Origin: Virgisporangium aliadipatigenens
GTDB taxonomy: Bacteria; Actinomycetota; Actinomycetes; Mycobacteriales; Micromonosporaceae
Assembly (NCBI RefSeq): GCF_016863615.1
Contig: NZ_BOPF01000056.1
Span: 1 to 49,223, forward strand
Reading direction: 5' to 3'
DNA: 49,223 nt
A program made the translations under genes and the position numbers. Positions within the stretch are counted from its first letter, which is position 1; every line of letters starts with the position of its first letter. The notes under the pieces are model-generated. The model was not told the origin of the DNA and did not search any database. It was given only the letters and a program-made list of their open reading frames with translations. Of this stretch, positions 32,235-48,137 are shown in pieces.

Positions 32235-33242
32235 ATGAACACTTTCCTGCGGGCCTGCCGGGGCGAACCGGTGCCGCACACGCCGGTGTGGTTCATGCGC
32301 CAGGCCGGGCGGTCCCTCCCGGAGTACCGCAAGGTGCGCGAGGGCATCCCGATGCTCGAGTCCTGCCGCCGCCCCGAACTGGTCTGCGAGATCACCCTGC
32401 AGCCGGTGCGCCGGCACAACGTCGACGCGGCGATCCTGTTCAGCGACATCGTGGTGCCGCTGGCCGCCGCCGGTATCGACCTCGACATCAAGCCCGGCGT
32501 GGGGCCGGTCGTCGAGGAGCCCGTGCGCGACGCGGCCGCCGTCGCCGCCCTGCCCGAGCTGACCCCGGACCGGGTGGACTACGTCGCCGAGGCCGTCCGC
32601 CTGCTGCGCGCCGAACTGGGCGACACCGCGCTGATCGGCTTCGCGGGTGCGCCGTTCACGCTGGCGAGCTATCTGGTCGAGGGCGGGCCGTCGCGCACGC
32701 ACGCCCGGACGAAGGCGCTGATGTACGGGGCGCCCGACGTGTGGCATGCGCTGTGCGCGAAGCTAGCCGCGATGACGCGGACGTTCCTGCGGGTGCAGGT
32801 CGACGCCGGGGTGCAGGCGGTGCAGCTGTTCGACTCGTGGGCGGGTGCGCTGTCCGAGGCGGACTACCGCCGCTACGTCCTGCCGCACTCGCGGTCGGTC
32901 CTGGAGGCGATCACCGGCGTGCCGCGCATCCACTTCGGGGTGGGCACCGGCGAGCTGCTCCCCGCGATGGCCGACGCGGGGCCGGAGGTCGTCGGCGTGG
33001 ACTGGCGGACGCCGCTCCGCGAAGCGGCGAAGCGGGTGCCGGGGCGGGTGCTGCAGGGGAACCTCGATCCGTGCGTGCTGTTCGCGCCGCCGGAGGTGGT
33101 GGCGGTCGAGGTGAGCCGTGTGCTGGAGGAGGGCCGGTCGGCTCCCGGGCACGTGTTCAACCTCGGGCACGGGGTGCTGCCGGAGACCGATCCCGACGCG
33201 CTCACCCGCGTCGTGGAGCTGGTCCACACCGCACAGCGGTAG
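32235..33242 (+). CDS. hemE: Uroporphyrinogen decarboxylase
   Basis: Decarboxylates the four acetate side chains of uroporphyrinogen III to give coproporphyrinogen III. 335 aa, normal. The family signature [16 protein letters not shown] is at about 17-32, with [22 protein letters not shown], the FDSWAGAL segment and [13 protein letters not shown] near the end. It starts the hemE-hemY-hemQ operon (14-bp gap to hemY). ATG 32235 has a TAGCAT box 9 nt upstream and no ribosome site. Confidence 0.96.
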
Positions 33243-33255
33243 GGGGCGGGAGAGC

Positions 33256-34623
33256 GTGCGGGTCGTCGTTGTCGGGGGCGGGATCAGCGGGCTCGCGGCG
33301 GCCCACCGGGTCGCGGAGGCGGGCGCGGACGTGCTCGTCGTCGAACAGTCGCCGGCGCCCGGGGGCAAGCTGCGGACGGTCGCCCTGCCCTCCGGCGATC
33401 CGGTGGAGACCGGCGCCGAGGCGTTCGCCGTCCGCGATCCGCAGACGGGCGCGCCGAGTCCGGCCGCGGAGCTGATAGACACTCTCGGACTGACCGCTTC
33501 CCTGGAACGCCCGAAGGCCGCCCGCGCGGGCGTCGTCACCGACTCCGGTGGGCTCGACCTGATCCCGGGCGGCACCCTGTTCGGCATCCCCGGCGATCCC
33601 TCGATGGAACGCGCCGCCGACAACGGGCCGCTGCTCAGCTCCGGCGACGACGTCTCCGTGGGGCGGATCGTGCGGGCGCGGCTCGGTGACGAGGTGGCCG
33701 ACCGGTTCGTGGACCCGATGCTCGGCGGCGTCTACGCGGGGCGGGCGGACGGGCTGTCGCTGGCGACGACCGTTCCGGCGCTGGCGCAGGCGTGTGCCGT
33801 CGAGGGAACCCTCACCGGTGCGGTGCGCCGTGTGCTGGAGCGGCGCCCGCCGGCGCAGGGGCTGTTCGCGACGCTCCACAGTGGACTGTCGTCGCTGACG
33901 GGCGCACTGGTCGACGCCGTCGGGGCAGACAACGTGCGCACCGGCCGTCCCGTGCGGCAGCTCTGCCCCACCGGCGTCGGCAGGTGGCGGCTGACCGTCG
34001 GGTCGACCCGCGATCCGGAGACGTTCATCGCCGACGCGGTCGTGCTGGCCGTGCCGGCGACGCCCGCCGCGCGGCTGCTCGCCGACAGCGCGCCGGCCGC
34101 CGTGGCACCCGTCGAGGTGCTCGACTACGCCAGCATGGTGCTCGTCACGCTCGAACTCCCCGAGTGCGAACTGCCCAGCGTCGACGGTGCCGAGCTGTCG
34201 GGGTTTCTCGTGCCGGCCGTGACGCCGTTCCATATAAAAGCCTCTACATTCTTGGACCGGAAGTGGCCGCACCTGCGGCGACCGGGGCGGACGCTGGTGC
34301 GAGTCTCGATCGGGCGGTACGGGGAGACGGCCCTGCTGCAACGGCCGGACGGCGAGTTGGCCGCGATCGCCGCCGCCGAACTGGCCGCGATCGCCGGCAC
34401 GCCCGCGACCCCGCTCGCGGCTCACGTGCACCGCTGGGGCGGCGCGCTGCCGCAGTACGCCCCCGGCCACCTCGACCGGGTCGCCGCCGCCCGCGCCGCG
34501 CTGCCGCCCACGCTCGCCCTGGCCGGTGCCGCCTACGACGGCGTCGGCATTCCGGCGTGCGTCCGCTCCGGTCGGGTCGCCGCCGAACGGGTCCTTTCCG
34601 CTCTGGCAGACTCGGACGCATGA
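33256..34623 (+). CDS. hemY: Coproporphyrinogen III oxidase (HemY/CgoX type, FAD)
   Basis: Oxygen-dependent FAD enzyme; in genomes with HemQ it oxidises coproporphyrinogen III to coproporphyrin III rather than acting on protoporphyrinogen. 455 aa. The FAD-binding motif is at the N-terminus ([20 protein letters not shown]) with VVEQ ending strand 2, and the C-terminal FAD contact is [22 protein letters not shown] 33256 follows GGGAGA. Its stop overlaps the hemQ start (ATGA). At 34231-34254 a run of AT-rich rare codons interrupts otherwise GC3-rich coding sequence. Many pipelines would name it protoporphyrinogen oxidase (hemG). Confidence 0.93.
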
Positions 34624-35318
34624 CCACCAACGCGTCGCGGATCAAGGAATTGAACGACACGATTCGGTACACGCTCTGGTCGGTGTTCCGGGTCGACACG
34701 CCGCTCGGTTCCGCCGACCGCGCCGCCTACGCCACCGAGCTGAGCGAACTGGTCGAGCAGCTGGCGGGCAAGGACGTGGTGGTGCGCGGCCTCTACGACG
34801 TGGCCGGGCTGCGCGCCGACGCCGACCTGATGGTGTGGTGGCACGCGCCGACCGCCGACGCCCTGCAGGACGCGTACGGGATGCTGCGGCGCACTTCTCT
34901 CGGGCAGCACCTGGCACCCGTGTGGTCGAACATGGCGCTGCACCGGCCGGCGGAGTTCAACAAGAGCCACATCCCGGCGTTCCTCGCCGGCGAGGAGGCG
35001 CGGCAGTACGTGTGCGTGTACCCGTTCGTGCGCTCGTACGAGTGGTACCTGCTGCCCGACGAGGAACGCCGCGACATGCTCGCCGAGCACGGGCGGCAGG
35101 CGCGCGGGTATCCCGACGTGCGGGCCAACACGGTGGCGTCGTTCGCGCTCGGCGACTACGAGTGGATGCTGGCGTTCGAGGCGGACGAGTTGCACCGCAT
35201 CGTCGACCTGATGCGGGACCTGCGGGCCTCGCGGGCGCGGCGGCACGTGCGCGAGGAGGTGCCGTTCTACACGGGACGGCGGCGCTCCGTCACCGACCTT
35301 GTGGCGAATCTTCCCTGA
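34620..35318 (+). CDS. hemQ: Coproheme decarboxylase (HemQ/ChdC)
   Basis: Last enzyme of the coproporphyrin-dependent pathway: oxidative decarboxylation of two propionates of coproheme III with H2O2 to give haem b. 232 aa, chlorite-dismutase fold. Residues that match, from memory, the actinobacterial ChdC active site are all present: His117 in NKSHIPAF (distal), Tyr134 in [13 protein letters not shown] (radical Tyr) and His157 in [13 protein letters not shown] (iron ligand). ATG 34620 overlaps the hemY stop by 4 bp. The ferrochelatase gene is not in this window. Confidence 0.95.
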
Positions 35319-37026: not shown

Positions 37027-38052
37027 ATGGAAGAGCTCTATCCCATCGGGGACGTCGCCCGCCGGACCGGGTTGACCGTCAGCGCGATCCGCTACTACTC
37101 CGACGAGGGCATCGTGCGGCCCGCCGGCCTCTCCCACGCCGGCCACCGGCTGTACGACATGCGCGCCGTGGCCCAGCTGGAAATGATCCGCACCCTGCGC
37201 GACCTGGGCACCGGGCTCGACGAGATCCGGCGCCTGGTCGCGGGCGAACTCTCCCTGCGCGACCTGCTCGCCGAGCATCTGGAGCTGGTCGAACGCCAGG
37301 AGCGGGAGCTGCGCGTCCGCCGAGCCGTGCTGCGCGCGTTGAACCGCGAGGAGAGCCCGGTCGAGCATGCGGTCCTCATGCACCGCCTGGTGTCGATGCC
37401 CGACGGGGAGCGCGCGCTGCTGGTCGACTCGTTCTGGAACGAGGTCGGCGCCGACCTGCCCGCCGACTTCGTCGACCGGCTCCGTGCGGTGCGGCCGCAC
37501 CTGCCGGACGACCCCACCGCCGCACAGCTCGCCGCCTGGATCGAACTGGCGTCGCTGCTGCGCGACCCGTCGTTCCGCGACACGGTGCGGGCGTACCTGC
37601 GTGAGACGTTCGCGACGGAGCCGGGGGAGCGGATGACCGCCGCGCCGATGCAGGAGTTCATCCACTCCAGCGGCGCGAGGATCATGGAACGGATCATCGC
37701 GGCGTACCGGTCCGGGCTGCCTGCCGGGTCGGCGCACGCCCAGGAGCTCGCCGTGCGGGCCGCGGACGGCGCGGCGGCGGCCGCCGGGGTGCCCGCCACC
37801 GCCGAACGGCGGGCGCGGCTGGCCGCCGGCTACGCGCAGATCGCCGAGATCCACCGGCAGGGGACCGAGGACGATGCCCGGTTCGACTCGACGCACGGGC
37901 GGTACCTCGCGCTGGTAGCCGCGATCAACGGGACCCCGGACGAGTACGCCGACGTCGACCTGGCCGACCTGGGCGTGTGGATCGCGGCGGCGCTGCGCGC
38001 CTCGACCCAGGCGGGCGAGGGCCAGGCGGGCGAGGCTCAGGCGCCCGGGTAG
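37027..38052 (+). CDS. MerR-family transcriptional regulator with long C-terminal domain
   Basis: A 341-aa regulator. The MerR winged helix-turn-helix is at residues 4-72 (YPIGDVARRTGLTVSAIRYY, HRLYDMRAVAQLEMIRTL), followed by a coiled-coil dimer helix (about 80-115, LELVERQERELRVRRAVLRA). The remaining 220 residues form an all-helical ligand-like domain without Cys metal sites, so it is not a metal-sensing MerR. No drug or oxidant motif is recognised. The 19-bp-spacer promoter upstream suggests autoregulation. It shares 16 bp at its 3' end with the convergent GGDEF-EAL gene. Confidence 0.88.
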   Translation: MEELYPIGDVARRTGLTVSAIRYYSDEGIVRPAGLSHAGHRLYDMRAVAQLEMIRTLRDLGTGLDEIRRLVAGELSLRDLLAEHLELVERQERELRVRRAVLRALNREESPVEHAVLMHRLVSMPDGERALLVDSFWNEVGADLPADFVDRLRAVRPHLPDDPTAAQLAAWIELASLLRDPSFRDTVRAYLRETFATEPGERMTAAPMQEFIHSSGARIMERIIAAYRSGLPAGSAHAQELAVRAADGAAAAAGVPATAERRARLAAGYAQIAEIHRQGTEDDARFDSTHGRYLALVAAINGTPDEYADVDLADLGVWIAAALRASTQAGEGQAGEAQAPG

Positions 38053-40394
38053 ACGGGGTGACCGGTCGGCAGGTGCACCGGGGTCGTCTGCTCCAGCAGG
38101 GCGGTCAACGCCTCCGGCGGCAGCGGCCGGGCGAAGTGGAAGCCCTGGGCGTTCCGGCAGCCGAGGAGCGTCAGCTCGGTGGCCTGCGCCGGATCCTCGA
38201 TCCCCTCCGCGACCGTGTCCAGGTGCAGGATCTGACCCAGCCGGATCACCGCCTCCGCCACCGCCGAACCCTCCGGGTCGCCGTTCAGCTCGGCGACGAA
38301 ACAGCGGTCGAGCTTGAGGATGTCGACCGGCAGGCGGGTCAGGTACCGCAGCGACGAGTAGCCCGTGCCGAAGTCGTCGAGCGCCACGCGCACCCCGTGC
38401 CCACGCAGTTCGTGCAGCTGCGGAACGGCCGAGTCGTCGTCGACGAGCGCACTCTCGGTGATCTCCAGCACGAGATCGCGCGGATCCAGGCCGGTGCGGC
38501 GCAACGTCTCCAGCACCTCGGCCGCGAGAGCGGGGCGGCGCAGCTGGTGCGCGGAGAAGTTCACGCTCAGGTGCAGGGTGCGACCCGGGGAAAGCCGCTC
38601 CTGCCACCGGCGCACCTGCCGGCTCGCCTGCTCCAGGACCCACGCGCCGATGTCGTCGATCACGCCGAGTTCCTCCGCCACCGGGATGAACTCCGCCGGC
38701 GGCACCACGCCCCGCGTCGGATGATGCCAGCGCACCAACGCCTCCACGGCCACCAGCGCGCCCGTAGCCAGCGCGACGATCGGCTGGTACAGCACGCGCA
38801 GCTGATCGGCGTCGACCGCGCGCAGCAGGTCCTCCCGCAGCGCCGCCGCCTCCCGGTCCTGGCGCATCGTCTCCTCCGAGTACAGCCGCCAGCCGCTGTG
38901 CTGCCGCCGCTTCGCCGCGTACATGGCGATGTCGGCGTGGTGCAGAAGTTCCCGCGGGGAGGGGGCGGCGCCCGGCTCCGACACGGCGATGCCGATGCTG
39001 GCGCGGATGCGCACCAGCTGCGTGCCGACGGGCACCGGGTCGCGGATCGTGGCGAGGATGCGTTCGGCGACCGCGATCGCCTCCGCCTCGCCGACCTCCT
39101 CCAGCAGCACCGCGAACTCGTCGCCGCCGAGCCGCGCCGACAGGTCGTCCGGGCGCAGCGTGCGCTTCAGCACCGCCGCGAACGCGGTCAGCACCGCGTC
39201 GCCCGCCTCGTGCCCGAGGGAGTCGTTCACCTGCTTGAAGCCGTCCAGGTCGATGGCGAGCGCCGCCACTCGCGCACCGGAGCGCCGCACCCGCTGCAAC
39301 GCCTCGTTCAGCCGCAGCCGGTTGGCGAGGCCGGTCAGCGCGTCGGTCAGCACCAGCGCGTGGTTCTCCCGCAGGGCCACCACCTGCCGGGCCGCCACGC
39401 CGAACGTCATCACGCACGCCCCCGCCACCAGCCCCGCCCACGGGTACGGGCCCGCCTCGATCGCCGCGAACGCCAGCAGCCCGAAGCCGAGCGCCAGCGC
39501 CACGTAGGGCAACGAGCTGTGCGGGCGCAACGGCCGCGGCCGGGTGTCGTCGCCGGGCGGCGCGGCCGCGAGCCGGCACTGCTCCGCCGCCGCGAACGCC
39601 GGCAGCGCGTACTGCATCAGCGTGGCCAGCATGAACCAGGGTGGGGTCAGCTCGTTCGGCCGGTAGAGCGTGCTGTGCGCGAGGTACACGTCGCCGAGCA
39701 GCGTCAGCACGGCACCGGCCAGCAGCAGCGGCAGCAGCCGCCGCGCCGAACCGGCCGCGCCGCGCAGCAGCACCGTGCCGATCCCGACGATGAGGATCAG
39801 GTCGCCGACCGGGTAGACGACGGTGACCAGGCCGGCCCGGCTCAGCGTCGCCGCGCCGTCCTCGAGAGCCGGCGCCAGCACGAAATACCACAACGCCATC
39901 CCGCCGCCGCCGACGACGGTCGTCACGTCCATCGCGAGTTTCCAGCGGGCGCGCCGGCCCAGCGGTTCGGCCGCGAAGGAGAGCATCCCCGCGAGCAGCA
40001 CCGGGACGGTCGCCAGCCGCGCGAGCACGGACACCACCAGCATCGGGGTGATCCGGCTGGGCGGCACCCCGCCGTTCTGCGCCATGGCGGCGCCGAAGCT
40101 CATGCCGTTCACGATGAGCAGGAGAAAGAAGGCGACGAGGAAGCGCCACGGGCGGCGGGTGCCGGGGTCGAGCCGGGGATGGGTGGCGGCGCGGGCGCTC
40201 ATGCCGAGCCCGACGACGTGCGTCGCCAGGAACGACAGCGCGATCCAGGCGAAGTAGGTCCCGGGGCGGACGAGCGTCACCGGCAGGGTCAGGACCGACG
40301 CCGCGACCACCGCGTACGGCAGAAACAGCCACGGGCGGACCACCCGATCCCCATCGGTCGGGGCGGCGGGCTTCTTAGAGCTTTCATTTCGCAC
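38037..40394 (-). CDS. Membrane diguanylate cyclase/phosphodiesterase (GGDEF-EAL)
   Basis: A 785-aa bifunctional c-di-GMP enzyme. Residues 20-335 contain about eight to ten hydrophobic helices (a 7TM-like sensor). The GGDEF domain (about 345-505) has intact LGGDEFAVL and the substrate part DLDGFKQVNDSLGHEAGD. The EAL domain (about 525-770) keeps VEALVRWHHP, NFSAHQL, LEITESAL, DDFGTGYSSL, the LKLDRCFV loop and AEGIED, so both activities look possible. There is no clear RxxD inhibitory site. Start GTG 40394 has no strong ribosome site. It lies 111 bp downstream of the GNAT gene on the same strand. It would set local c-di-GMP, which in actinomycetes controls development. Confidence 0.92.
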   Translation of the reverse strand: MRNESSKKPAAPTDGDRVVRPWLFLPYAVVAASVLTLPVTLVRPGTYFAWIALSFLATHVVGLGMSARAATHPRLDPGTRRPWRFLVAFFLLLIVNGMSFGAAMAQNGGVPPSRITPMLVVSVLARLATVPVLLAGMLSFAAEPLGRRARWKLAMDVTTVVGGGGMALWYFVLAPALEDGAATLSRAGLVTVVYPVGDLILIVGIGTVLLRGAAGSARRLLPLLLAGAVLTLLGDVYLAHSTLYRPNELTPPWFMLATLMQYALPAFAAAEQCRLAAAPPGDDTRPRPLRPHSSLPYVALALGFGLLAFAAIEAGPYPWAGLVAGACVMTFGVAARQVVALRENHALVLTDALTGLANRLRLNEALQRVRRSGARVAALAIDLDGFKQVNDSLGHEAGDAVLTAFAAVLKRTLRPDDLSARLGGDEFAVLLEEVGEAEAIAVAERILATIRDPVPVGTQLVRIRASIGIAVSEPGAAPSPRELLHHADIAMYAAKRRQHSGWRLYSEETMRQDREAAALREDLLRAVDADQLRVLYQPIVALATGALVAVEALVRWHHPTRGVVPPAEFIPVAEELGVIDDIGAWVLEQASRQVRRWQERLSPGRTLHLSVNFSAHQLRRPALAAEVLETLRRTGLDPRDLVLEITESALVDDDSAVPQLHELRGHGVRVALDDFGTGYSSLRYLTRLPVDILKLDRCFVAELNGDPEGSAVAEAVIRLGQILHLDTVAEGIEDPAQATELTLLGCRNAQGFHFARPLPPEALTALLEQTTPVHLPTGHPVYPGA

Positions 40395-40505: not shown

Positions 40506-40934
40506 TCACCGCTGCATGGGGGTGTGCGGGATGCCGTCCTCGATGTACTCGGGGGCGCTTGGCGTGAAACCCAGCCGTTCGTAGAAGCCGACCAGGTGGC
40601 TTTGTGCGTCCAGCACGCACGTGCGGTTTCCGATGCGGTCGAGGGCCGACTTCAGGAGTTGCTGGGACAGGCCCCGGCCGCGGGCGTGCGGCGCCGTGAC
40701 CACCCGGCCGATGCGGGCCACGCCGCCCGGGTCCGCCAGGATGCGCAGGTAGGCCAGCGGCTGGTTCGTGTCGTCGCTGATCCACAGGTGGCGGGTGTCC
40801 GGTTCGACGTCGCGGCCGTCGAACTCGGGATAAGCGCACTCCTGCTCCACCACGAACACGTCGCAGCGCAGTTTCACCAGCGCGTGGAAGGTGAAGACGT
40901 CCAGGTCGGCGAAGCGGCGTTCGTTGATGATCAC
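40506..40934 (-). CDS. elaA: ElaA-like GNAT acetyltransferase
   Basis: A 142-aa N-acetyltransferase of the ElaA branch. The CoA-binding motif is RVVTAPHARGRGLSQQLL (R-x-x-G-R/G); other family features are LRCDVFVVEQECAYPEFDGR near the N-terminus and the closing DGIPHTPM. Substrate unknown. Start GTG 40934 overlaps the antiporter stop by 4 bp, making it the last gene of the six-gene operon. It may be a passenger or may acylate an operon product. Confidence 0.88.
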   Translation of the reverse strand: MIINERRFADLDVFTFHALVKLRCDVFVVEQECAYPEFDGRDVEPDTRHLWISDDTNQPLAYLRILADPGGVARIGRVVTAPHARGRGLSQQLLKSALDRIGNRTCVLDAQSHLVGFYERLGFTPSAPEYIEDGIPHTPMQR

Positions 40935-42607
40935 CGCTTCATGGTGTCATCACCGGATGCCTTCACGGCCTCACCGTCACGTGCCTCTATGGCTTTCACC
41001 GTCACGTGGCGGACACCCTTCGGCCAGTCGGTGCGGCTGCCGGCCGTCACGACCAGGTCCGGCGCCGCCGCCGAGATCTGATGTGCGAGGTCGCCGATCG
41101 GATCGGTGGTGAAATGCGCGGTCACATGCGCCGTCAGCCCGGCGTCGCGGATCGGGGCGGCCAGCTCCGCCAGTTCGGTCAGCGCGGCCGTCATCGCCAG
41201 GAGTTCGCCGGTCAGGCCGGTGCTCACCTCCGGCGGCGACGGGTAGGGGACCAGCCGGTTGAGGACGACCACCGCGGCGGGGGCGCGTTCGCGGGCCAGC
41301 CGGGTCGCCTCCCGCACCACCGACGCCGCGTGCTCGCCGGGCGGGACCTCCACCAGTACCCGGAACGCCGTGGGCGCCCCGAGGGCGTCGCGCTCGGCCG
41401 CCATCCGATCCGCCTCGACCTGACCCGCCGGGTAGATCACGGCCAGGACCGGCCCCGCCATCGCGGTCGTCACCAGCGCCATCACGACCATCATGGAGAA
41501 CATCCGGGTGTCCAGGATCCCCAACTGCAGGCCCACGGTCAGGATCACCAGCTCGGTGAGGCCCCGGGTGTTCATCAGCGTGGCGAGCGCACCGGAACGG
41601 CGCCGGTCCATCCCGTGCAGCCGCGCCCCCGCGTAGGCGCCCGCGACCTTGCCGGTGATCGCCACGAGCAGGATGGCCGCCAGTTCGACGAGGCCGCCGC
41701 CGCCCAACGCGGACAGGTCGACCCGCAGGCCGGCGATCACGAAGAAGCACGGGAGCAGCAGCAGGACGCTGACCTGTTCGAGCCGGCCGAGGATCTCGTG
41801 GCGCAGCGCCGGCCGGTCGCGCGGCATCACCGCCCCGAACAGGAACGCCCCGAAGATCGCGTGCACCCCGAGCCACTCCGCGCACCAGCAGGACAGCAGC
41901 AGCCCCACCAGCACCAGGGCGAGCACGTCCGGCGTCAGCTTCTCCTTGGCCAGCCTCCTCAGCGCGGGCCGCACCAGCAGGAACATCACCACCAGGTACG
42001 GCACGATCAGCACCAGGTGCCAGGGCACCACGCCCGACGCCGATGCCATCGCCACCACGAACGCCAGCAGCGACCACGCCACGATGTCGCCGACCGCCCC
42101 GGCCGCCAACGCCATCGCCCCGACGGTGGTGCGCACCATGCCGCGATCGGCGAGGATGCGCGCCAGCACCGGCATCGCCGTCACCGCCATGGCCGCGCCG
42201 AGGAAGAGCACGAACGCCGCCACGTTCCGCACGTCGTGCCGCCCGGCCAGCCAGAACGCCAGCGCCACCCCCAGGCCCAGCGGCAGCAGCGTCGAGCCGA
42301 GCGCCACCGACACCGCCGCCCGCCCGCGCCCACGCAGGGTCGCCGGATCGATCTCGTAGCCGACGATGAACATGAACAGCACCAGGCCGACGTTCGCCAG
42401 GGCGGCCAGCGCCGGACGGATGTCCGTCGGGAAGAGCGCGTCACCCAGCCCGGCACCGAACAGGCTCGGGCCGACCGCGATCCCGGCCACGATCTCGCCG
42501 ATCACCGGCGGCTGACCGATCCGCTTCGCGGCCGCCCCGAACAGGCGCGCCAGGGCGATGACGCAGCCGAGCGCCAGCAGCAGCGTCGCCACCTGCTCCG
42601 CGGTCAT
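40931..42607 (-). CDS. CPA2-family cation/proton antiporter with C-terminal cytosolic domain
   Basis: A 558-aa KefB/NapA-like antiporter. Residues 5-390 give about 12 helices, starting with PPVIGEIVAGIAVGPSL (helix 2), then AAMAVTAMPVLARILAD and LATLMNTRGLTELVILTVG. The central CPA2 helix reads AGAVGDIVAWSLLAFVV, with a single Asp (GD) where electroneutral members have ND or SD. The last 140 residues are a soluble USP-like domain (FRVLVEVPPGEHAASVV, ISAAAPDLVVTAGS) rather than RCK, a likely regulatory input. ATG 42607 overlaps the kinase stop and its own stop overlaps the GNAT start, tying transport to the kinase/FHA pair. Whether it carries K+, Na+ or another ion is open. Confidence 0.88.
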   Translation of the reverse strand: MTAEQVATLLLALGCVIALARLFGAAAKRIGQPPVIGEIVAGIAVGPSLFGAGLGDALFPTDIRPALAALANVGLVLFMFIVGYEIDPATLRGRGRAAVSVALGSTLLPLGLGVALAFWLAGRHDVRNVAAFVLFLGAAMAVTAMPVLARILADRGMVRTTVGAMALAAGAVGDIVAWSLLAFVVAMASASGVVPWHLVLIVPYLVVMFLLVRPALRRLAKEKLTPDVLALVLVGLLLSCWCAEWLGVHAIFGAFLFGAVMPRDRPALRHEILGRLEQVSVLLLLPCFFVIAGLRVDLSALGGGGLVELAAILLVAITGKVAGAYAGARLHGMDRRRSGALATLMNTRGLTELVILTVGLQLGILDTRMFSMMVVMALVTTAMAGPVLAVIYPAGQVEADRMAAERDALGAPTAFRVLVEVPPGEHAASVVREATRLARERAPAAVVVLNRLVPYPSPPEVSTGLTGELLAMTAALTELAELAAPIRDAGLTAHVTAHFTTDPIGDLAHQISAAAPDLVVTAGSRTDWPKGVRHVTVKAIEARDGEAVKASGDDTMKR

Positions 42608-43395
42608 GCGAGCGCCTCGATCCGTTCGGCGACCACCGCCGCGGTCGGCCTGCGTCCCGCCGGTGCCAGGCAGTCGGAGATCAGTTCTTTCACGGGAACG
42701 GCCAGAGCTTCGCTGATCCGCGGCGGTGTCGACAGCACGCGGCGCAGCGCCATGAGCCCGTCGTCGCGGGGCAGTTCGCCGTGCACGCCCCGGCCGGCGA
42801 ACACGTGGTGCAGCACCACGCCGAGCGACCAGACGTCGTTGTCGGGGCCGCTCGGTTCGCCCAGCAGGATCCCGGGGTCGACGTACTGCACCGAGTCCAG
42901 CGAACCCATCCCGGTGACCGTCACCCCCTCCGTGAACAGGTGCGACAGCCCCAGGTCGGTCAGCTTCCCGCCGCCGGCGTCGAGCAGGATGTTGCCCGGC
43001 TTGATGTCCCGGTGCACGATTCCCGCCCGGTGCAACGCGTCGGCGGCCCGCGCCGCGTGCGCCACCGCCGGCAGCACCTTCGGCGGGTCCCACGGCTGCG
43101 GGGCGTCGTCGAGCGAACCCTCCGGCAGATACTCCGTCGAGTAGAAGAACACCCCGTCGTGCTGCCCCGCGTCGTACGCCGCCACCAGATACGGCGACCG
43201 CACCGCCGCGAACGCCGTCAGCTCCCGCGTCGCCCGCCGGAACGCCACCTCCGTCGACTCCGCGGACAGCACCTTCACCGCCACGAACTCCGCCTCGACC
43301 GGCAGCCGCGGCGGCCGGCGGGCCAGGAAGAAGTGGCCGTTGTTGCCCGAGCCGAGCGGCCGGACGAACGTGTAGTCCGCGATCCCCTGCACCAC
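42604..43395 (-). CDS. Soluble Ser/Thr protein kinase, non-canonical
   Basis: A 263-aa Hanks-type kinase without a membrane helix or sensor. P-loop GSGNNGHFFLA (15-25), catalytic Lys41 in FVAVKVL, catalytic loop HRDIKPGNILL and metal-binding loop TDLGLSH (DLG instead of DFG). The activation segment is short, without the usual GTPxYMAPE; SVQYVDP stands at that place. The C-lobe PxxVWSLGVVL-like region (DNDVWSLGVVLHHVF) is normal. The GAGGAG site is 3 nt before GTG 43395 and 6 nt before GTG 43392; the second is the better start. It lies 7 bp after the FHA gene, its likely substrate or partner, and overlaps the antiporter start. Confidence 0.9.
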   Translation of the reverse strand: MVQGIADYTFVRPLGSGNNGHFFLARRPPRLPVEAEFVAVKVLSAESTEVAFRRATRELTAFAAVRSPYLVAAYDAGQHDGVFFYSTEYLPEGSLDDAPQPWDPPKVLPAVAHAARAADALHRAGIVHRDIKPGNILLDAGGGKLTDLGLSHLFTEGVTVTGMGSLDSVQYVDPGILLGEPSGPDNDVWSLGVVLHHVFAGRGVHGELPRDDGLMALRRVLSTPPRISEALAVPVKELISDCLAPAGRRPTAAVVAERIEALA

Positions 43396-43402
43396 TGTCT
43401 CC

Positions 43403-46222
43403 TCACGGGTTCCGATGGGACTCGTAGCGCAGCCACCGCCGCCCGAACCCGACCAGCGATCCCGGCCGGACGGTCACCGGCGTCCCCGCCGGGATGCGGC
43501 GCGGCGCGGTGTCGCCGGGCAGTTGGACCAGCGTGCCGTTGGCCGACTGCAGGTCGACGACCTGCACGTGCCAGCCGTTGAGCGTCAGGCGCAGATGCCG
43601 GCGCGACATACCCGTTCCCGAACCGGCGATCCGCAGCGGGCGCGCCCGCCCGGCCACCACGTCGTCGTCGAACTCCGGCTCCCGGCCGATCACATAATCG
43701 GTGTCCAGCCGCACCGTCGTCCCGTTGTCCAGCAGCAGAACGCCCAACGGCGGCCGCTTGCCGAGCTGCCGGACGGCGGTGAGCTGCACCAGGGAGATGC
43801 CGCACACCGCACAGAACGGCACCGTCGGGTCCGTGAAGTGGCCGTTGGCGCACCGGATGCCGTGGATCATCGGCCCGGTCGTGGCGGCCGAGTCGACCGG
43901 CCGCGCGGGCGGCGCCGGGGGAAGCGGCCGCGCGTGGCCGGGCATCAGCAGCACGACCTCGTACGGCTGCGCCGGATCGGGCTGAATCGGCACCGGGGCC
44001 GTCCGCCGCTGCACCGGGCGCGCGGGCGGCGGAGCCACACTTGCGCGCGGGTCCGGGGGAGCACTGTCCGGCCGCGGCGCGACGGTCTCCTCGGGCGGTC
44101 CACTCGGGACAGTCGACTCGTCCACAGTGGACGAACGTTGCGCCGCCCCTGCCGCCGCCCCCGCCGCCGCGCCGGAGCCCGCCGGGTGCGCGGACGGCGC
44201 TTGCGCGGCCGGTGCGTGTCCGGGCGGTGGCGCCGCTGCGACCGGGGCGAACGCCTGCGCCTGCCCGGCCGGTGCGCCCGCCACATGCGCCGGTGGCGCT
44301 GCTGCCGGGGGCGGAACCGTCTGTGCCGGCGGCACCTGCGCACTTGCTGCGCTTCGGACGTGCGCCGGCGGCGCCCCTGCGGGCGCGGCGACCGCCGGTG
44401 CGCCCGGGGCATGCGCCGCCTGAGCGATCTGAGCTGCCGGCGGCGCCGCTGCCGGCTGCGGTCCCGGTGCGTGCGCAGACCGTGCCGCCACCGACGGCGA
44501 TGCGGCCGATGTGTGGACGGGCGGCACCTGTGCCTGCGGCACGGCCGATCCGGACGATGCCGGGGAAGCGAGCGCCTGGGTGGCGGCGCTGCCGAAATCG
44601 GTCGTGGCCGCCGGTGCGGCCTGCGGCACGGCTTGGACAGGCGGGTGCGCCGCCTTATCGGCCGTGGTGCCCGGCCGCTCAGCCGGCGTCGGCTGTGATG
44701 TGCCGTCGACGGGTGCCCGGGCCGGCAGCATCGGCTCGTCCTCCGGTCGGGTCGGCGGCTGCGCGGCCGGCGCGAGCGGCTGTCCGGCCTGGGTCGGCGC
44801 GTCGGCCGGATCCGTGACGCCGGCGGCCCTCCCCGCGGGCAGGGCGAGCGCCTGGGTGGCGGCGCTGCCGAGGTCGGTAGCGATCACCGGCGTCGGCTGT
44901 GCACCCGGTGCGGCCGCCTGAGCCGGCAGGGTCGGCTCATCCTCGGGCCGTGCCGGCGGCTGAGCGGCGGGCGCCGACTGCCCGCCTGCTGTGGGCGTCC
45001 GCGTGGTGGGGGCCGGAGGTGGCGCGGTCGGTCCCGCCTGCGCTGCGGCCGGCATAGACGGTCCCACTCCCGATGAGGGAGCGGCTGATGCTGCGGGAGG
45101 TGCCGCGTCCGCAAGCCCGTACGGCGCTTGTGCCGCAGGGCGAGCCGCCTCTCCGGCCCGGCCCGGCACCTGCGCCGGGAGGGTCGGCTCGTCCTCGGGG
45201 CGCGCGGCCGGCCGCGCGGCCGGCCGCGCGGCCGGGCCTTGCGGGCGTCCGGCTCGGGCCGGCTCCTCCGCCGCGCGGTCGGCAACGGCGGCGCCGTCGC
45301 CCGAGTGCGCGATCACCTGGGTGGCCGCGCTCCCCGGATCGGCGACAGCCCCGGCCGGAACGGTGCCGCCCGGAACCGGACCACCCGACCCGGGCACGGC
45401 GACGGTCGCCGGGTAGCCGTGGGACGCCGCCGCGCCGGCCGCAGCCGGATCGCCCGGCGGGCCCGACACGGTGGCGGCTGTCGGCGCGCCGGGGGATGCC
45501 GGCACGCCTGTGGGCAGTGCCACCGTTGCGGCGGTCGGGACGGCCTCGGGCGTCTGCGCGCCTGCGTGTCCCGGTGGCGTCGCGGACGCCGGCACGCCTG
45601 TGGGCAGCGGCACCGTCGCGGGTGTCGGCGCGCCGGTGGGTATTGCGACCGTCGCGGGCGTCGGCGGGTCCGTGAGCTGCGGCAGTGGGCGGGCGTCCGT
45701 GGGGGAGGGTGGCGGGTGGGCTTTGGCGGCGGTCATACCCCGGGCGGGGGACGCAGCCGCTGACGGGAGTGCCGCGCTGACCCGGGTCAGGTCGGCGATG
45801 AGGCCACCGCCGGGCACCACGCCCGCGTCGAGCCGGGTGCGCGGGTCCGGTTCGGGGACGGGGCCGAGCGTCAGCACGAGCGTGTGCACCGGCCCGTCGC
45901 TCAGGCGGTGCGCCCGTTTCGGGCCGGACAGCCGGAAACGGTCCCGCGGGCCACCGGCGAGTGCGCGCGCGGAGCCGTTCACCAGGACGGCGAGGCGGCC
46001 CTCGGCGGTGATCCCGGCGACCGCCGCCGACAGCGATGAGGTCGCGAGCAGGCCGCCCGCGCGCATCACCAGTTCCTCGCCGTCGCCGTCGAGGCGCTGA
46101 ACCCGTTCCATCAAGGACAAGAGGGCGTCCGCCGACGGCACGGCCGCACACACGATCAGCAGGCCCCCGGCGCGCGCCACGAGACCCTGTCCCGGGAACG
46201 GGCGAACGATCATCCCCGTCAT
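43403..46222 (-). CDS. FHA-domain protein with long repetitive Pro/Ala linker and zinc ribbon
   Basis: A 939-aa multidomain protein. Residues 1-145 are a compact domain of unknown family (ARAGGLLIVCAAVPSADALL, SLMERVQRLDGDGEELVMRA). Residues 150-750 are Pro/Ala/Thr-rich linker containing repeats of RPEDEPTLPA (three copies, one with Met for Thr), GSAATQ (three) and ATVxLPTGVPA. Near 785-805 is a zinc-ribbon-like CANGHFTDPTVPFCAVCG. The C-terminal FHA domain (about 830-930) has VIGREPEFDD, GMSRRHLRLTL and DLQSANGTLV, the residues that bind phospho-threonine. ATG 46222 overlaps the upstream stop (ATGA) and the kinase follows. It is probably a phospho-dependent scaffold for that kinase. Confidence 0.85.
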   Translation of the reverse strand: MTGMIVRPFPGQGLVARAGGLLIVCAAVPSADALLSLMERVQRLDGDGEELVMRAGGLLATSSLSAAVAGITAEGRLAVLVNGSARALAGGPRDRFRLSGPKRAHRLSDGPVHTLVLTLGPVPEPDPRTRLDAGVVPGGGLIADLTRVSAALPSAAASPARGMTAAKAHPPPSPTDARPLPQLTDPPTPATVAIPTGAPTPATVPLPTGVPASATPPGHAGAQTPEAVPTAATVALPTGVPASPGAPTAATVSGPPGDPAAAGAAASHGYPATVAVPGSGGPVPGGTVPAGAVADPGSAATQVIAHSGDGAAVADRAAEEPARAGRPQGPAARPAARPAARPEDEPTLPAQVPGRAGEAARPAAQAPYGLADAAPPAASAAPSSGVGPSMPAAAQAGPTAPPPAPTTRTPTAGGQSAPAAQPPARPEDEPTLPAQAAAPGAQPTPVIATDLGSAATQALALPAGRAAGVTDPADAPTQAGQPLAPAAQPPTRPEDEPMLPARAPVDGTSQPTPAERPGTTADKAAHPPVQAVPQAAPAATTDFGSAATQALASPASSGSAVPQAQVPPVHTSAASPSVAARSAHAPGPQPAAAPPAAQIAQAAHAPGAPAVAAPAGAPPAHVRSAASAQVPPAQTVPPPAAAPPAHVAGAPAGQAQAFAPVAAAPPPGHAPAAQAPSAHPAGSGAAAGAAAGAAQRSSTVDESTVPSGPPEETVAPRPDSAPPDPRASVAPPPARPVQRRTAPVPIQPDPAQPYEVVLLMPGHARPLPPAPPARPVDSAATTGPMIHGIRCANGHFTDPTVPFCAVCGISLVQLTAVRQLGKRPPLGVLLLDNGTTVRLDTDYVIGREPEFDDDVVAGRARPLRIAGSGTGMSRRHLRLTLNGWHVQVVDLQSANGTLVQLPGDTAPRRIPAGTPVTVRPGSLVGFGRRWLRYESHRNP
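45203..45238 (-). repeat. Three 12-nt GC-only tandem repeats in the FHA-protein linker
   Basis: The unit GCGCGGCCGGCC is repeated three times with self-complementary halves and encodes ARPA units just before the first PEDEPTLPA motif. It is a likely slippage site. Confidence 0.7.
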
Positions 46223-46620
46223 ACGAGCCGCCCGCCCCGGAAGCGCCAGCGCAGGAACGGCACCCGCATCGGGCCGTTCGCCACCAGCCACACGATGATC
46301 CACACCGTCGTGAAGTGCAGCACGAACGCCCACACCGGCGGCCGCAGGCCGATCAGCGGGAGCAGCAGCCACACCACGATCCCCTCGGAGACGCCGGTCA
46401 GCAGGCCGAACAGCGACGGCCAGTCCTTCTCCCACCGGAACTGCATGATCAGGTGATAGACGCACTCCCACGCGATGCCCAGGACGGCGACGGCGGCCAG
46501 CACCACGAACGACGCGCGCAACCCCGGCAGCACCGGCGTGAGCGCCAACGTGACCAGCGACCCCACGGTCGCCAGCAGGAACAGCCGGGTCTGGATCCGG
46601 CCGAACAGAATCGGGACCAT
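46219..46620 (-). CDS. Small polytopic membrane protein
   Basis: A 133-aa hydrophobic protein of no family I recognise, with about four helices: RLFLLATVGSLVTLALTPVL, ASFVVLAAVAVLGIAWECVY, LFGLLTGVSEGIVVWLLLPL and AFVLHFTTVWIIVWLVA. Short basic ends (RWRFRGGRLV) point to a cytoplasmic C-terminus. ATG 46620 is chosen because GGAGGG lies 5 nt upstream; GTG 46626 overlaps the previous stop but leaves no ribosome spacing. The stop overlaps the FHA-protein start. It could anchor the FHA/kinase complex or hand electrons to or from the FAD protein, which is inference only. Confidence 0.75.
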   Translation of the reverse strand: MVPILFGRIQTRLFLLATVGSLVTLALTPVLPGLRASFVVLAAVAVLGIAWECVYHLIMQFRWEKDWPSLFGLLTGVSEGIVVWLLLPLIGLRPPVWAFVLHFTTVWIIVWLVANGPMRVPFLRWRFRGGRLV

Positions 46621-46622
46621 CG

Positions 46623-48137
46623 TCACCCTCCGACCGGCTTGCCGAGGAACCAGCGCACCCACTGCGCCGTGGAACGCCACGGCCCGATGCGCCGCACGAA
46701 GCCGCGCCGGGCCAGGTCGTCGGTGATCTCCTGGGCGGCGACCTGCAACCCCAGGAACGTGTCGACGCCCGGGAAGTACCCGCCGAGCGTGGCGGCGCCG
46801 GAGGCGTACAGCGCCCCGTCGCCGCTGGCGGTGCCCTTGACCTCGAAGTGGCGTTCGACCTCCAGACGGCCCAACGGATTGCGGAACGCTCCACTGTGGA
46901 GCATCAGGTCGGCGAGCACGCGGTGCCGGTCGATGTCGGCCGTGAGGCCGGTGCAGTCGATGACGAAGTCCGCCGGGACCGACTGCATGTCGTTGCCGTT
47001 GCGGACGTGGCTGATGACGCCGCCGTTCGGCCTCGGCTCGACGCGCTCGACGGTGCCCTGCATCGGGAAGTACCAGCTGCCCTTGCGGCCGTCGCGCATC
47101 TGGCGTTGCCAGCGGCGGCGTTTCGGCGTGTTGGTGCCGCCCATGTCCTTGTACAGGCGGGCGCGTTCGGGGCCGTCGAGCCGGCGCATCTGCGCCTTGA
47201 GCTGGCCGCCCCACACCGACTTCGGATAGTTGAACCCCTGGTAGGCCCAGCCGTCGCCGCCCTTGCGCCGCATCCACAGGTGCGGCCCGTGCGGCCCGTC
47301 GACGTAGGTGCGGAAGATCTGCACGATGCGGGTCTGCAGGCCGAACCTCTCCCGGTCGTCCATGAGGCGTTGCAGCACACGGGAGGCGACGATGCCGCCG
47401 CCGCGCACGACGACGGTGCCGGGCCGGGTCTTGAGCGCCTCGTAGACGTGTTCGTGGGACTCGTAGGCGTTGACGACGCGCTGGTAGTCGCCGTACCGCT
47501 CGCGGAACTCCTGCAGGTCCGGCAGGAACCGCAGGCCCGGATAGCCGACGGCCAGGTGGACGAAGCGGGACCGGAACGCCACGCGCCGGGTCGGTGCCGT
47601 GCCGGCCGGCGGGGTCAGGATCGTGAAATAGCCGCCGCCGGCACGCCTGCGCACCATGCGGACCACGCCCTTGGCGAGCATCGAATCGTAGGAGATCCGG
47701 TCGGCCTCACGTTTCATGGACGTGAAGACCATTCCGACCCGGGGTGTCCAATAGTCGGCGAAGATTGGTTCACCCAGCACGTGCAACAGTGGTTTCAGGG
47801 ATTTGTCCTGCCAGAATTCCGACACCGCGTACGACGGAAATCCCCAGATGTTGTCGGGCCGCGACGACGAGTCCGAACGGATCCTTTCCCGGTGCGGGAT
47901 CTGCGACACCCGGGTCAGGTATTCGTAGGTCTGCCACGGTCGGTCCAGGTTGGACAGCACCCGTATCGAGGATGCCGGAACGCCCGCGATGCGCAGGTAG
48001 TCCACGGTGACAAAGCTGCCGATACCGCCGCCGACGCTCACGAACGGCGCGTCGAGCACCGGTATCCCGGCCGCTGCGAGCATGTCGTCGGACCACTGCG
48101 GAGTCTGTAGCAGGGTCGGCGTGAGATCTCCCGCCAT
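46623..48137 (-). CDS. FAD/NAD(P)-binding oxidoreductase
   Basis: A 504-aa flavoprotein of the monooxygenase/pyridine nucleotide-disulfide type. A dinucleotide motif near the N-terminus, FVSVGGGIGSFVTVDYLRIA (about 32-51), would bind FAD, a second Rossmann motif VVVRGGGIVASRVLQRLM (about 247-264) would bind NAD(P), and DFVIDCTGLTAD followed by GAATLGGYFPGVDTFLG matches the ATG and C-terminal FAD regions. The N-terminal motif starts about 30 residues later than usual. There is no membrane helix. ATG 48137 has a GAGGGG site. First gene of the six-gene operon. Substrate unknown; the enzyme may provide a redox signal or a modification step. Confidence 0.85.
   Translation of the reverse strand: MAGDLTPTLLQTPQWSDDMLAAAGIPVLDAPFVSVGGGIGSFVTVDYLRIAGVPASSIRVLSNLDRPWQTYEYLTRVSQIPHRERIRSDSSSRPDNIWGFPSYAVSEFWQDKSLKPLLHVLGEPIFADYWTPRVGMVFTSMKREADRISYDSMLAKGVVRMVRRRAGGGYFTILTPPAGTAPTRRVAFRSRFVHLAVGYPGLRFLPDLQEFRERYGDYQRVVNAYESHEHVYEALKTRPGTVVVRGGGIVASRVLQRLMDDRERFGLQTRIVQIFRTYVDGPHGPHLWMRRKGGDGWAYQGFNYPKSVWGGQLKAQMRRLDGPERARLYKDMGGTNTPKRRRWQRQMRDGRKGSWYFPMQGTVERVEPRPNGGVISHVRNGNDMQSVPADFVIDCTGLTADIDRHRVLADLMLHSGAFRNPLGRLEVERHFEVKGTASGDGALYASGAATLGGYFPGVDTFLGLQVAAQEITDDLARRGFVRRIGPWRSTAQWVRWFLGKPVGG

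Follow-up and report, generated by a model that had tools for sequence, protein, structure and literature searches.

The window, by which we mean the whole stretch of DNA that was analysed (49,223 bp), is the complete contig C56 of Virgisporangium aliadipatigenens, whose genome of 10.29 Mb is distributed over 112 contigs; its G+C content, taken per 2 kb, is 0.68-0.80. It carries a row of six leftward (minus-strand) genes, five of which belong to a conserved module that is the subject of this report. These are: FAD, a protein of 504 amino acids with two Rossmann-like glycine motifs and a TG motif (46623..48137); MEM, a protein of 133 amino acids with about four membrane helices (46219..46620); FHA, a protein of 939 amino acids with an N-terminal domain, a linker, a CxxxH...CxxC motif and an FHA domain (43403..46222); KIN, a soluble Ser/Thr kinase (42604..43395); and CPA, a CPA2-type antiporter with a soluble tail of about 160 amino acids (40931..42607). 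The sixth gene encodes a GNAT acetyltransferase by Pfam (40506..40934), which is translationally coupled here and is not a conserved member. FAD and MEM are separated by 2 bp (46621-46622), and FHA and KIN by 7 bp (43396-43402) with the first-listed KIN start; MEM and FHA share an ATGA overlap (46219-46222), as do KIN and CPA (42604-42607), and CPA and GNAT a GTGA overlap (40931-40934). An original prediction, made from this DNA alone, had described a coupled operon of six leftward genes, and the reading frames, their strand and every junction were borne out by a check of the open reading frames. Nothing resembling a sigma-70 promoter or a terminator was found between positions 40,300 and 49,223, a negative that carries little weight when the actinobacterium is G+C-rich.

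The loci compared here are the best 80 of 123 relatives from a genome scan with FAD, so that FAD is present by construction, and KIN, CPA and GNAT were counted in the 68 loci with full flanks. All 80 loci have MEM directly behind FAD, the gap between the two being estimated at a median of 12 bp (at most 60 bp in 77 of the 80), and FHA comes next in 75; the five loci that miss it (L038, L047, L061, L062 and L085) end at contig edges, and four of them contain a partial FHA gene. KIN is present in 57 of the 68 full-flank loci, CPA in 56 and both in 55; when these loci are sorted into 27 genus-level groups, KIN occurs in most loci of 20 groups, and CPA likewise in 20. The same-strand order FAD-MEM-FHA-KIN-CPA recurs in Micromonospora (L007), Phytohabitans (L008), Plantactinospora (L009) and Longispora (L032). 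The window GNAT, counted as a member by the original prediction, is matched in just one of the 68 loci. The proposed six-gene system therefore contracts to FAD, MEM, FHA, KIN and CPA, which are conserved over many genera, while the GNAT is local; the possibility that the genes adjoin each other only in this genome did not materialize. Judged by these gene orders and by the genome scan described next, the adjacency of the five genes (not of GNAT) is far beyond chance.

Independently of adjacency, we scanned 396 genomes sampled evenly over the phylum; the scans scored the top first-look candidates, and absences are less certain than presences. FAD matches were found in 17 genomes: 12 are strong (expectation (E) values of 6.5e-152 or better) and five weak (3.6e-9 to 6.3e-6). 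MEM was found in 12 genomes, identical to the 12 with strong FAD matches; the chance of this overlap is about 4e-23 if the genomes are independent, but they are related and the real surprise is smaller. KIN (1.1e-85 or better) is present in 10 of these 12 genomes and in none of the 384 others; four other genomes reach about 1e-47 at best. The C-terminal region of FHA (2.1e-42 or better) was detected in 12 genomes, of which 10 have FAD, and more weakly in nine further genomes.

Split clusters indicate where the module comes apart. In one genome (G412) FAD, at 49 kb, has a more distant CPA-like gene (37% identity) as its neighbour, and MEM-KIN-FHA with a convergent CPA form a second site at 3.80 Mb. 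Eleven genomes have full-flank loci that lack KIN, and two of them (Rhizohabitans and Antrihabitans YC3-6) encode KIN elsewhere, divergent from CPA in both. Streptosporangium subroseum has, downstream of FHA, the same genes that come after KIN in related loci, but KIN-CPA is absent from the place between them. Since the split clusters keep parts of the module together and the KIN-less loci keep FAD-MEM-FHA, the arrangement of the genes points to two sub-modules: a core of FAD-MEM, usually with FHA, and a separable KIN-CPA pair.

The window FAD protein falls below every Pfam and NCBIfam cut-off, and its best weak Pfam match is Trp_halogenase, at 11.8 bits against a cut-off of 21. Among 37 aligned members, Trp_halogenase is matched weakly in seven (best E value 0.001) and Lys_Orn_oxgnase, also weakly, in one (E value 0.18). 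A PDB profile search with FAD recovered no relative, and neither did a PDB sequence search with a protein of the sister family described below. Invariant in the 37 sequences are G36/G38/G40, G246/G248/A251 and T396/G397, which we take to be two Rossmann dinucleotide sites and a TG motif; from these glycine motifs the cofactor is predicted and FAD would be a flavoprotein. The earlier designation of an FAD enzyme holds in that dinucleotide-type motifs are seen, but the window protein reaches no Pfam flavoprotein cut-off.

MEM shows about four hydrophobic segments by hydropathy, and its motifs GRIQTR and QFRWEKDWP are strongly conserved among 27 aligned sequences; comparison with Pfam and the PDB gave no credible family. 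A deeper layer of the pairing is seen in the five weak FAD matches of the genome scan, which constitute a sister family (L104-L108) with 23-27% identity to the window FAD in the four that were aligned; the four that were tested reach no Pfam cut-off. A membrane protein with a similar GR-x-x-TR-like start lies directly downstream in all five loci, and comparison with MEM by hhalign gave an E value of 2.2e-6 and a probability of 89. With a MEM-like partner in five of five sister loci, the FAD-MEM pairing is older than the family found in the window. Pfam-confirmed FHA genes are present in four of these loci (L104, L105, L107 and L108), and kinase genes in L104 and L106. The sister family of FAD also carries a SESESHFLPADWP-like motif.

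The FHA domain of the window protein (PF00498) covers residues 856-927. Residues G87, R88, S114, R115, H117, N136 and G137 are invariant in 22 sequences; they include the GR, SxxH and NG residues of the phosphothreonine site. The linker of about 640 amino acids is 28% Ala and 22% Pro, and the CxxxH...CxxC motif is zinc-ribbon-like. Within the DNA encoding the linker, G+C reaches 0.80 (44001-46000), and units resembling RPEDEPTLPAQ together with GSAATQ recur in Ala/Pro repeats. The N-terminal domain of the window protein has no match in Pfam; its 31 members give scattered weak matches, the best being VMAP-C at an E value of 0.00044 in a single member, and against the PDB there were lactoferrins and other chance-level matches only. 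A phosphothreonine-binding domain joined to an N-terminal domain without a family is what the original prediction had described, and both parts were confirmed. Many relatives share the N-terminal domain; as five loci of the Micromonosporaceae (L007, L008, L009, L011 and L032) encode short FHA proteins that lack it, it cannot be essential. As to the conservation check that had been proposed, namely co-occurrence of this domain with the kinase and the antiporter, FHA, KIN and CPA recur together across genera.

Three candidate affinities of the N-terminal domain were rejected: a degenerate PP2C (hhalign probability 0.1, using sequence profiles only), a degenerate Usp (unsupported by profile comparison) and a relationship to the FHA protein of a PP2C/kinase locus, L140 (E value 0.12, the common part being the C-terminal region). 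In L140 and L138, FHA proteins with a zinc-ribbon-like motif and an FHA region adjoin genes that by eye are PP2C-like; the L138 locus contains, in addition, a gene of the MoxR-type AAA kind and a WXG100 match below threshold.

KIN comprises 263 amino acids; no transmembrane segment is predicted in it and Pkinase (PF00069) is its sole domain, in line with the earlier description of a kinase without a sensor. Because its relatives start with M-x-G-I-A-D-Y, the true start is more likely the next GTG, at 43392, which would widen the FHA/KIN gap to 10 bp. Against NF033483 it scores 88.7 bits, the cut-off being 450, and it lies outside the PknB/StkP-type sensor kinases, which have a transmembrane helix and a sensor such as PASTA outside the cell. 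The window protein has the catalytic Lys (VAxK), the HRD Asp and the DLG Asp, from which kinase activity is predicted. The orthologues are 37-66% identical (26 aligned), and the 36 other matches in its own genome reach 36% or less; by this separation KIN is a dedicated, conserved kinase subfamily. In a PADLOC search KIN matches 34 defence-kinase families, the best being mad6, and the other five proteins match none; we read these matches as general kinase similarity. In Micromonospora (L007) and Geodermatophilus (L073) Pfam identifies a second, larger kinase next to the module, and in these loci a partner may act upstream of KIN, which has no sensor of its own. A candidate second kinase in Gordonia (L036) was rejected: the gene clusters with kinases yet matches no Pfam family.

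CPA matches PF00999 (1.3e-55) and no other Pfam domain. Since its score against TIGR00932 (138.3 bits) is below the cut-off of 238.3, we label it CPA2-type and do not count it a member of that family. The second Asp of the ion-site pair, the Lys, and the Arg and Glu of NTRGLTE are conserved in 60 of 60 aligned sequences. The position of the first Asp of that pair varies in the same 60 sequences (D in 39, I in 17, N in two, V in one and G in the window protein alone), which suggests that the ion or the stoichiometry may differ by lineage. The tail, about 160 amino acids in the window, ranges over 143-347 in 19 aligned relatives. No KTN/RCK domain was found in the window protein, and four relatives examined likewise show PF00999 with or without Usp. 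Usp (PF00582) is not matched in the window tail; of those four relatives, L013 scores 24.3 against a cut-off of 24.0, L076 is below it at 18.8 and two have none, and comparison of the tail with a Gordonia Usp alignment gave an hhalign probability of 0.7 and an E value of 0.086. Of the 'USP-like tail instead of RCK' in the original prediction, the soluble tail is there and no RCK domain was found; the window tail has no Pfam Usp match, and one of the four relatives reaches the Usp cut-off.

In some lineages another transporter appears, from its position, to take the output place. Two divergent loci (L121 and L122) have the order FAD-MEM-TauE/SafE-KIN-FHA, and in Parafrankia (L041) the genes after FHA encode a DUF305 protein and a SulP permease, the gene clusters of both recurring in four Frankia-group loci. 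The core of a Nocardia locus (L083) lies near respiratory complex I genes (Oxidored_q6 by Pfam, others by eye). In Nocardioides and Pimelobacter, KIN is divergent and upstream, beside a VWA-PP2C-kinase-FHA/trypsin cluster; in L054 (2575-8935) the VWA, PP2C, second kinase and FHA-trypsin fusion are Pfam-confirmed, and a protein of 505 amino acids has no Pfam match. We take TerY-P-like to be the name for VWA-PP2C-kinase clusters of this kind. Such a cluster is a separate neighbour in these two genera and is absent from the window operon. An actinobacterial kinase encoded with PP2C and vWA genes, as in the Nocardioides neighbour cluster, is described in PMC7159879, which otherwise treats other systems.

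Kinases of this family modify Ser and Thr residues, phosphothreonine is the ligand of FHA domains, and PF00999 proteins exchange cations for protons. Against this background we favour, with slightly less than even confidence, the reading that the locus is one phospho-signalling and transport module, in which a flavoprotein core gates the antiporter through the kinase and the FHA protein. FAD would bind FAD and NAD(P)H, and MEM would hold it at, or couple it to, the membrane; FAD would read the state of NAD(P)H or of a quinone (electrophile), and its signal would alter the activity or the partners of KIN. KIN might then phosphorylate threonines of the antiporter tail, the FHA linker or both, and the FHA domain, by binding the phosphothreonine, would open or close the antiporter, so that ion-for-proton exchange could set cytoplasmic pH. 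The coupling of the module genes is well supported; the signal, its direction and the ion we infer, as we do redox sensing and the antiporter as the regulated output. The original prediction had likewise passed a redox or membrane signal by kinase and FHA to the antiporter, and the conserved coupling of five genes agrees with it, but GNAT and the single six-gene unit fall away.

Several observations weigh against this reading. Orientation varies among the 55 loci with both KIN and CPA: both are forward in 16, KIN is forward and CPA reversed in 27, and the remaining 12 have both genes reversed, with KIN upstream of FAD. In nine of the 11 genomes with KIN-less full-flank loci a KIN orthologue was found nowhere (three Parafrankia, Frankia, two Nocardia, Actinomadura, Streptosporangium subroseum and Dactylosporangium); their best KIN matches are paralogue-like, with E values of 8e-42 or weaker, and in six of the 11 genomes the search scored the best 150 of 165-217 candidates. 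These nine genomes imply that FAD-MEM does not act only through KIN. A Nonomuraea locus has FAD-MEM without an adjacent FHA, and one genome of the scan (G258; 42% identity in FAD and 41% in MEM) has FAD-MEM without a KIN or FHA match, on a contig of 10,194 bp that extends about 5.4 kb past MEM. In the other KIN-less FAD genome (G408) the contig ends after 3,113 bp. Conversely, two genomes (G089 and G273) have the FHA C-terminal region without FAD. The catalytic HRD Asp is Asn in nine of 63 aligned KIN sequences, all from Gordonia (L036, L046, L053, L056, L058, L070, L071, L074 and L077), the site reading HANITPSS in three aligned sequences; this substitution suggests a pseudokinase role at a conserved position. 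Finally, FAD, as its scores stand, is at cut-off in no known flavoprotein family.

A possible, if somewhat unlikely, alternative is that FAD-MEM is a membrane-bound redox enzyme, a reductase or monooxygenase acting on a lipid, quinone or sulfur substrate, and that the signal flows to this enzyme and not to the antiporter; FHA and KIN would tune the enzyme, and the transporter would export or balance ions or substrate. Such an enzyme would agree with FAD-MEM being the only invariant unit and existing without an adjacent FHA, or without any KIN orthologue found (nine of 11), with the differing transporters beside the core (CPA2-type; TauE/SafE in L121 and L122; SulP with DUF305 in L041) and with the position of the Nocardia L083 core near complex I genes. 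It accords poorly with the confinement of KIN orthologues to FAD genomes in the 396-genome scan and with the retention of CPA by KIN when away from the core, which suggests that the transporter is the client of the kinase. That the five genes are linked mainly by shared expression, as a stress island whose products act separately and whose FHA does not bind KIN substrates, we consider improbable: the presence and absence of FAD, MEM and KIN agree across genomes even when unlinked, and a dedicated kinase subfamily is conserved, although gene order and strand do differ among lineages and the promoter/terminator pattern of one transcript was not found. To a chance juxtaposition in this genome misread as an operon we give next to no weight, since conservation refutes it for FAD, MEM, FHA, KIN and CPA, even if it likely holds for the GNAT (one of 68 loci).

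Among known systems, the phospho-signalling module that we favour is most readily set beside KefC-KefF and KefB-KefG. According to one review, KefF is a flavin quinone reductase required for full KefC activity (PMC10224563). Both arrangements encode a CPA2-type antiporter with a redox protein (predicted as such here), and cytoplasmic pH would be the output. Unlike the module antiporter, in which no KTN/RCK domain was found, the Kef pairs perform glutathione-gated K+/H+ efflux. No KefF/KefG-type quinone reductase was matched in the operon (other loci of the genome were not searched for KefF); a two-Rossmann-motif protein, a four-helix protein, an FHA protein and a kinase are present instead. 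On both features tested, the KTN/RCK domain and the KefF/KefG-type subunit, the module falls outside Kef. The same review states that glutathione is not made by most Gram-positives (PMC10224563), because of which a glutathione-dependent Kef mechanism would be impossible in most of them. Gating by kinase and FHA could stand in place of the glutathione/KTN gating of KefF-KefC. The wider proposal is of a glutathione-independent Kef counterpart, not described before, in which one sensor core sits on exchangeable transporters (CPA2-type, TauE/SafE or SulP) that vary by actinobacterium; a new flavoprotein and its membrane partner would read redox or electrophile stress, and the dedicated kinase, with FHA as a zinc-ribbon adaptor, would relay it to the transporter. 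This proposal we regard as doubtful.

The mycobacterial PknF-Rv1747 and PknB-FhaA-MviN circuits link an FHA domain with a Ser/Thr kinase and with a transporter or flippase of the membrane. Their kinase types and clients are other than those of the module, and Rv1747 is itself a fusion of FHA domain and transporter; neither circuit is known to include a FAD-MEM pair. FhaB/FipA (NF049868) is matched weakly at residues 853-918 (22.5 bits against 125), in the FHA part only of the 939 amino acids. A description of the FAD-MEM-FHA-KIN-CPA combination was not found in the literature searched, most subscription papers lying outside the search. Kinase-FHA-transporter circuits are known in kind, and the present module has two unclassified families at its core.

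Beyond the module, a gene that by eye is GNAT-like, of another subfamily, lies near KIN in Streptosporangium and Planomonospora loci (e.g. L017 and L027); its cluster (c18) comprises 12 loci, and it is no match to the window GNAT. Directly downstream of the window GNAT, on the same strand, is a GGDEF-EAL protein of 785 amino acids (38037-40394, minus strand) whose N-terminal half is hydrophobic by eye, and the 1.1 kb from the FAD start to the contig end (48138-49223) hold no convincing gene. At about 32235-35318 lie HemE (URO-D) and then genes that by eye are protoporphyrinogen oxidase- and HemQ-like, a standard haem cluster. The window HemE shares 80% identity with its counterpart in the Dactylosporangium genome tested and 77% with the one in Micromonospora, so that the host probably belongs to the Micromonosporaceae; as these values agree with the identity of FAD to its relatives (up to 79%), horizontal transfer is not favoured. 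The distribution of the operon is patchy, with matches in six of 41 relatives (its own genome counted) and none in the two genomes of the same genus that were searched. One of 72,556 plasmid records carries it, a Nonomuraea replicon of 11.85 Mb listed as a plasmid.

FAD and MEM are two conserved protein families whose window members have no Pfam coverage at cut-off. One of the 37 kinase-like matches of the genome gains a likely dedicated membrane client, and the module would provide concrete genes for coupling electrophile or redox stress to the control of ions and pH without glutathione.

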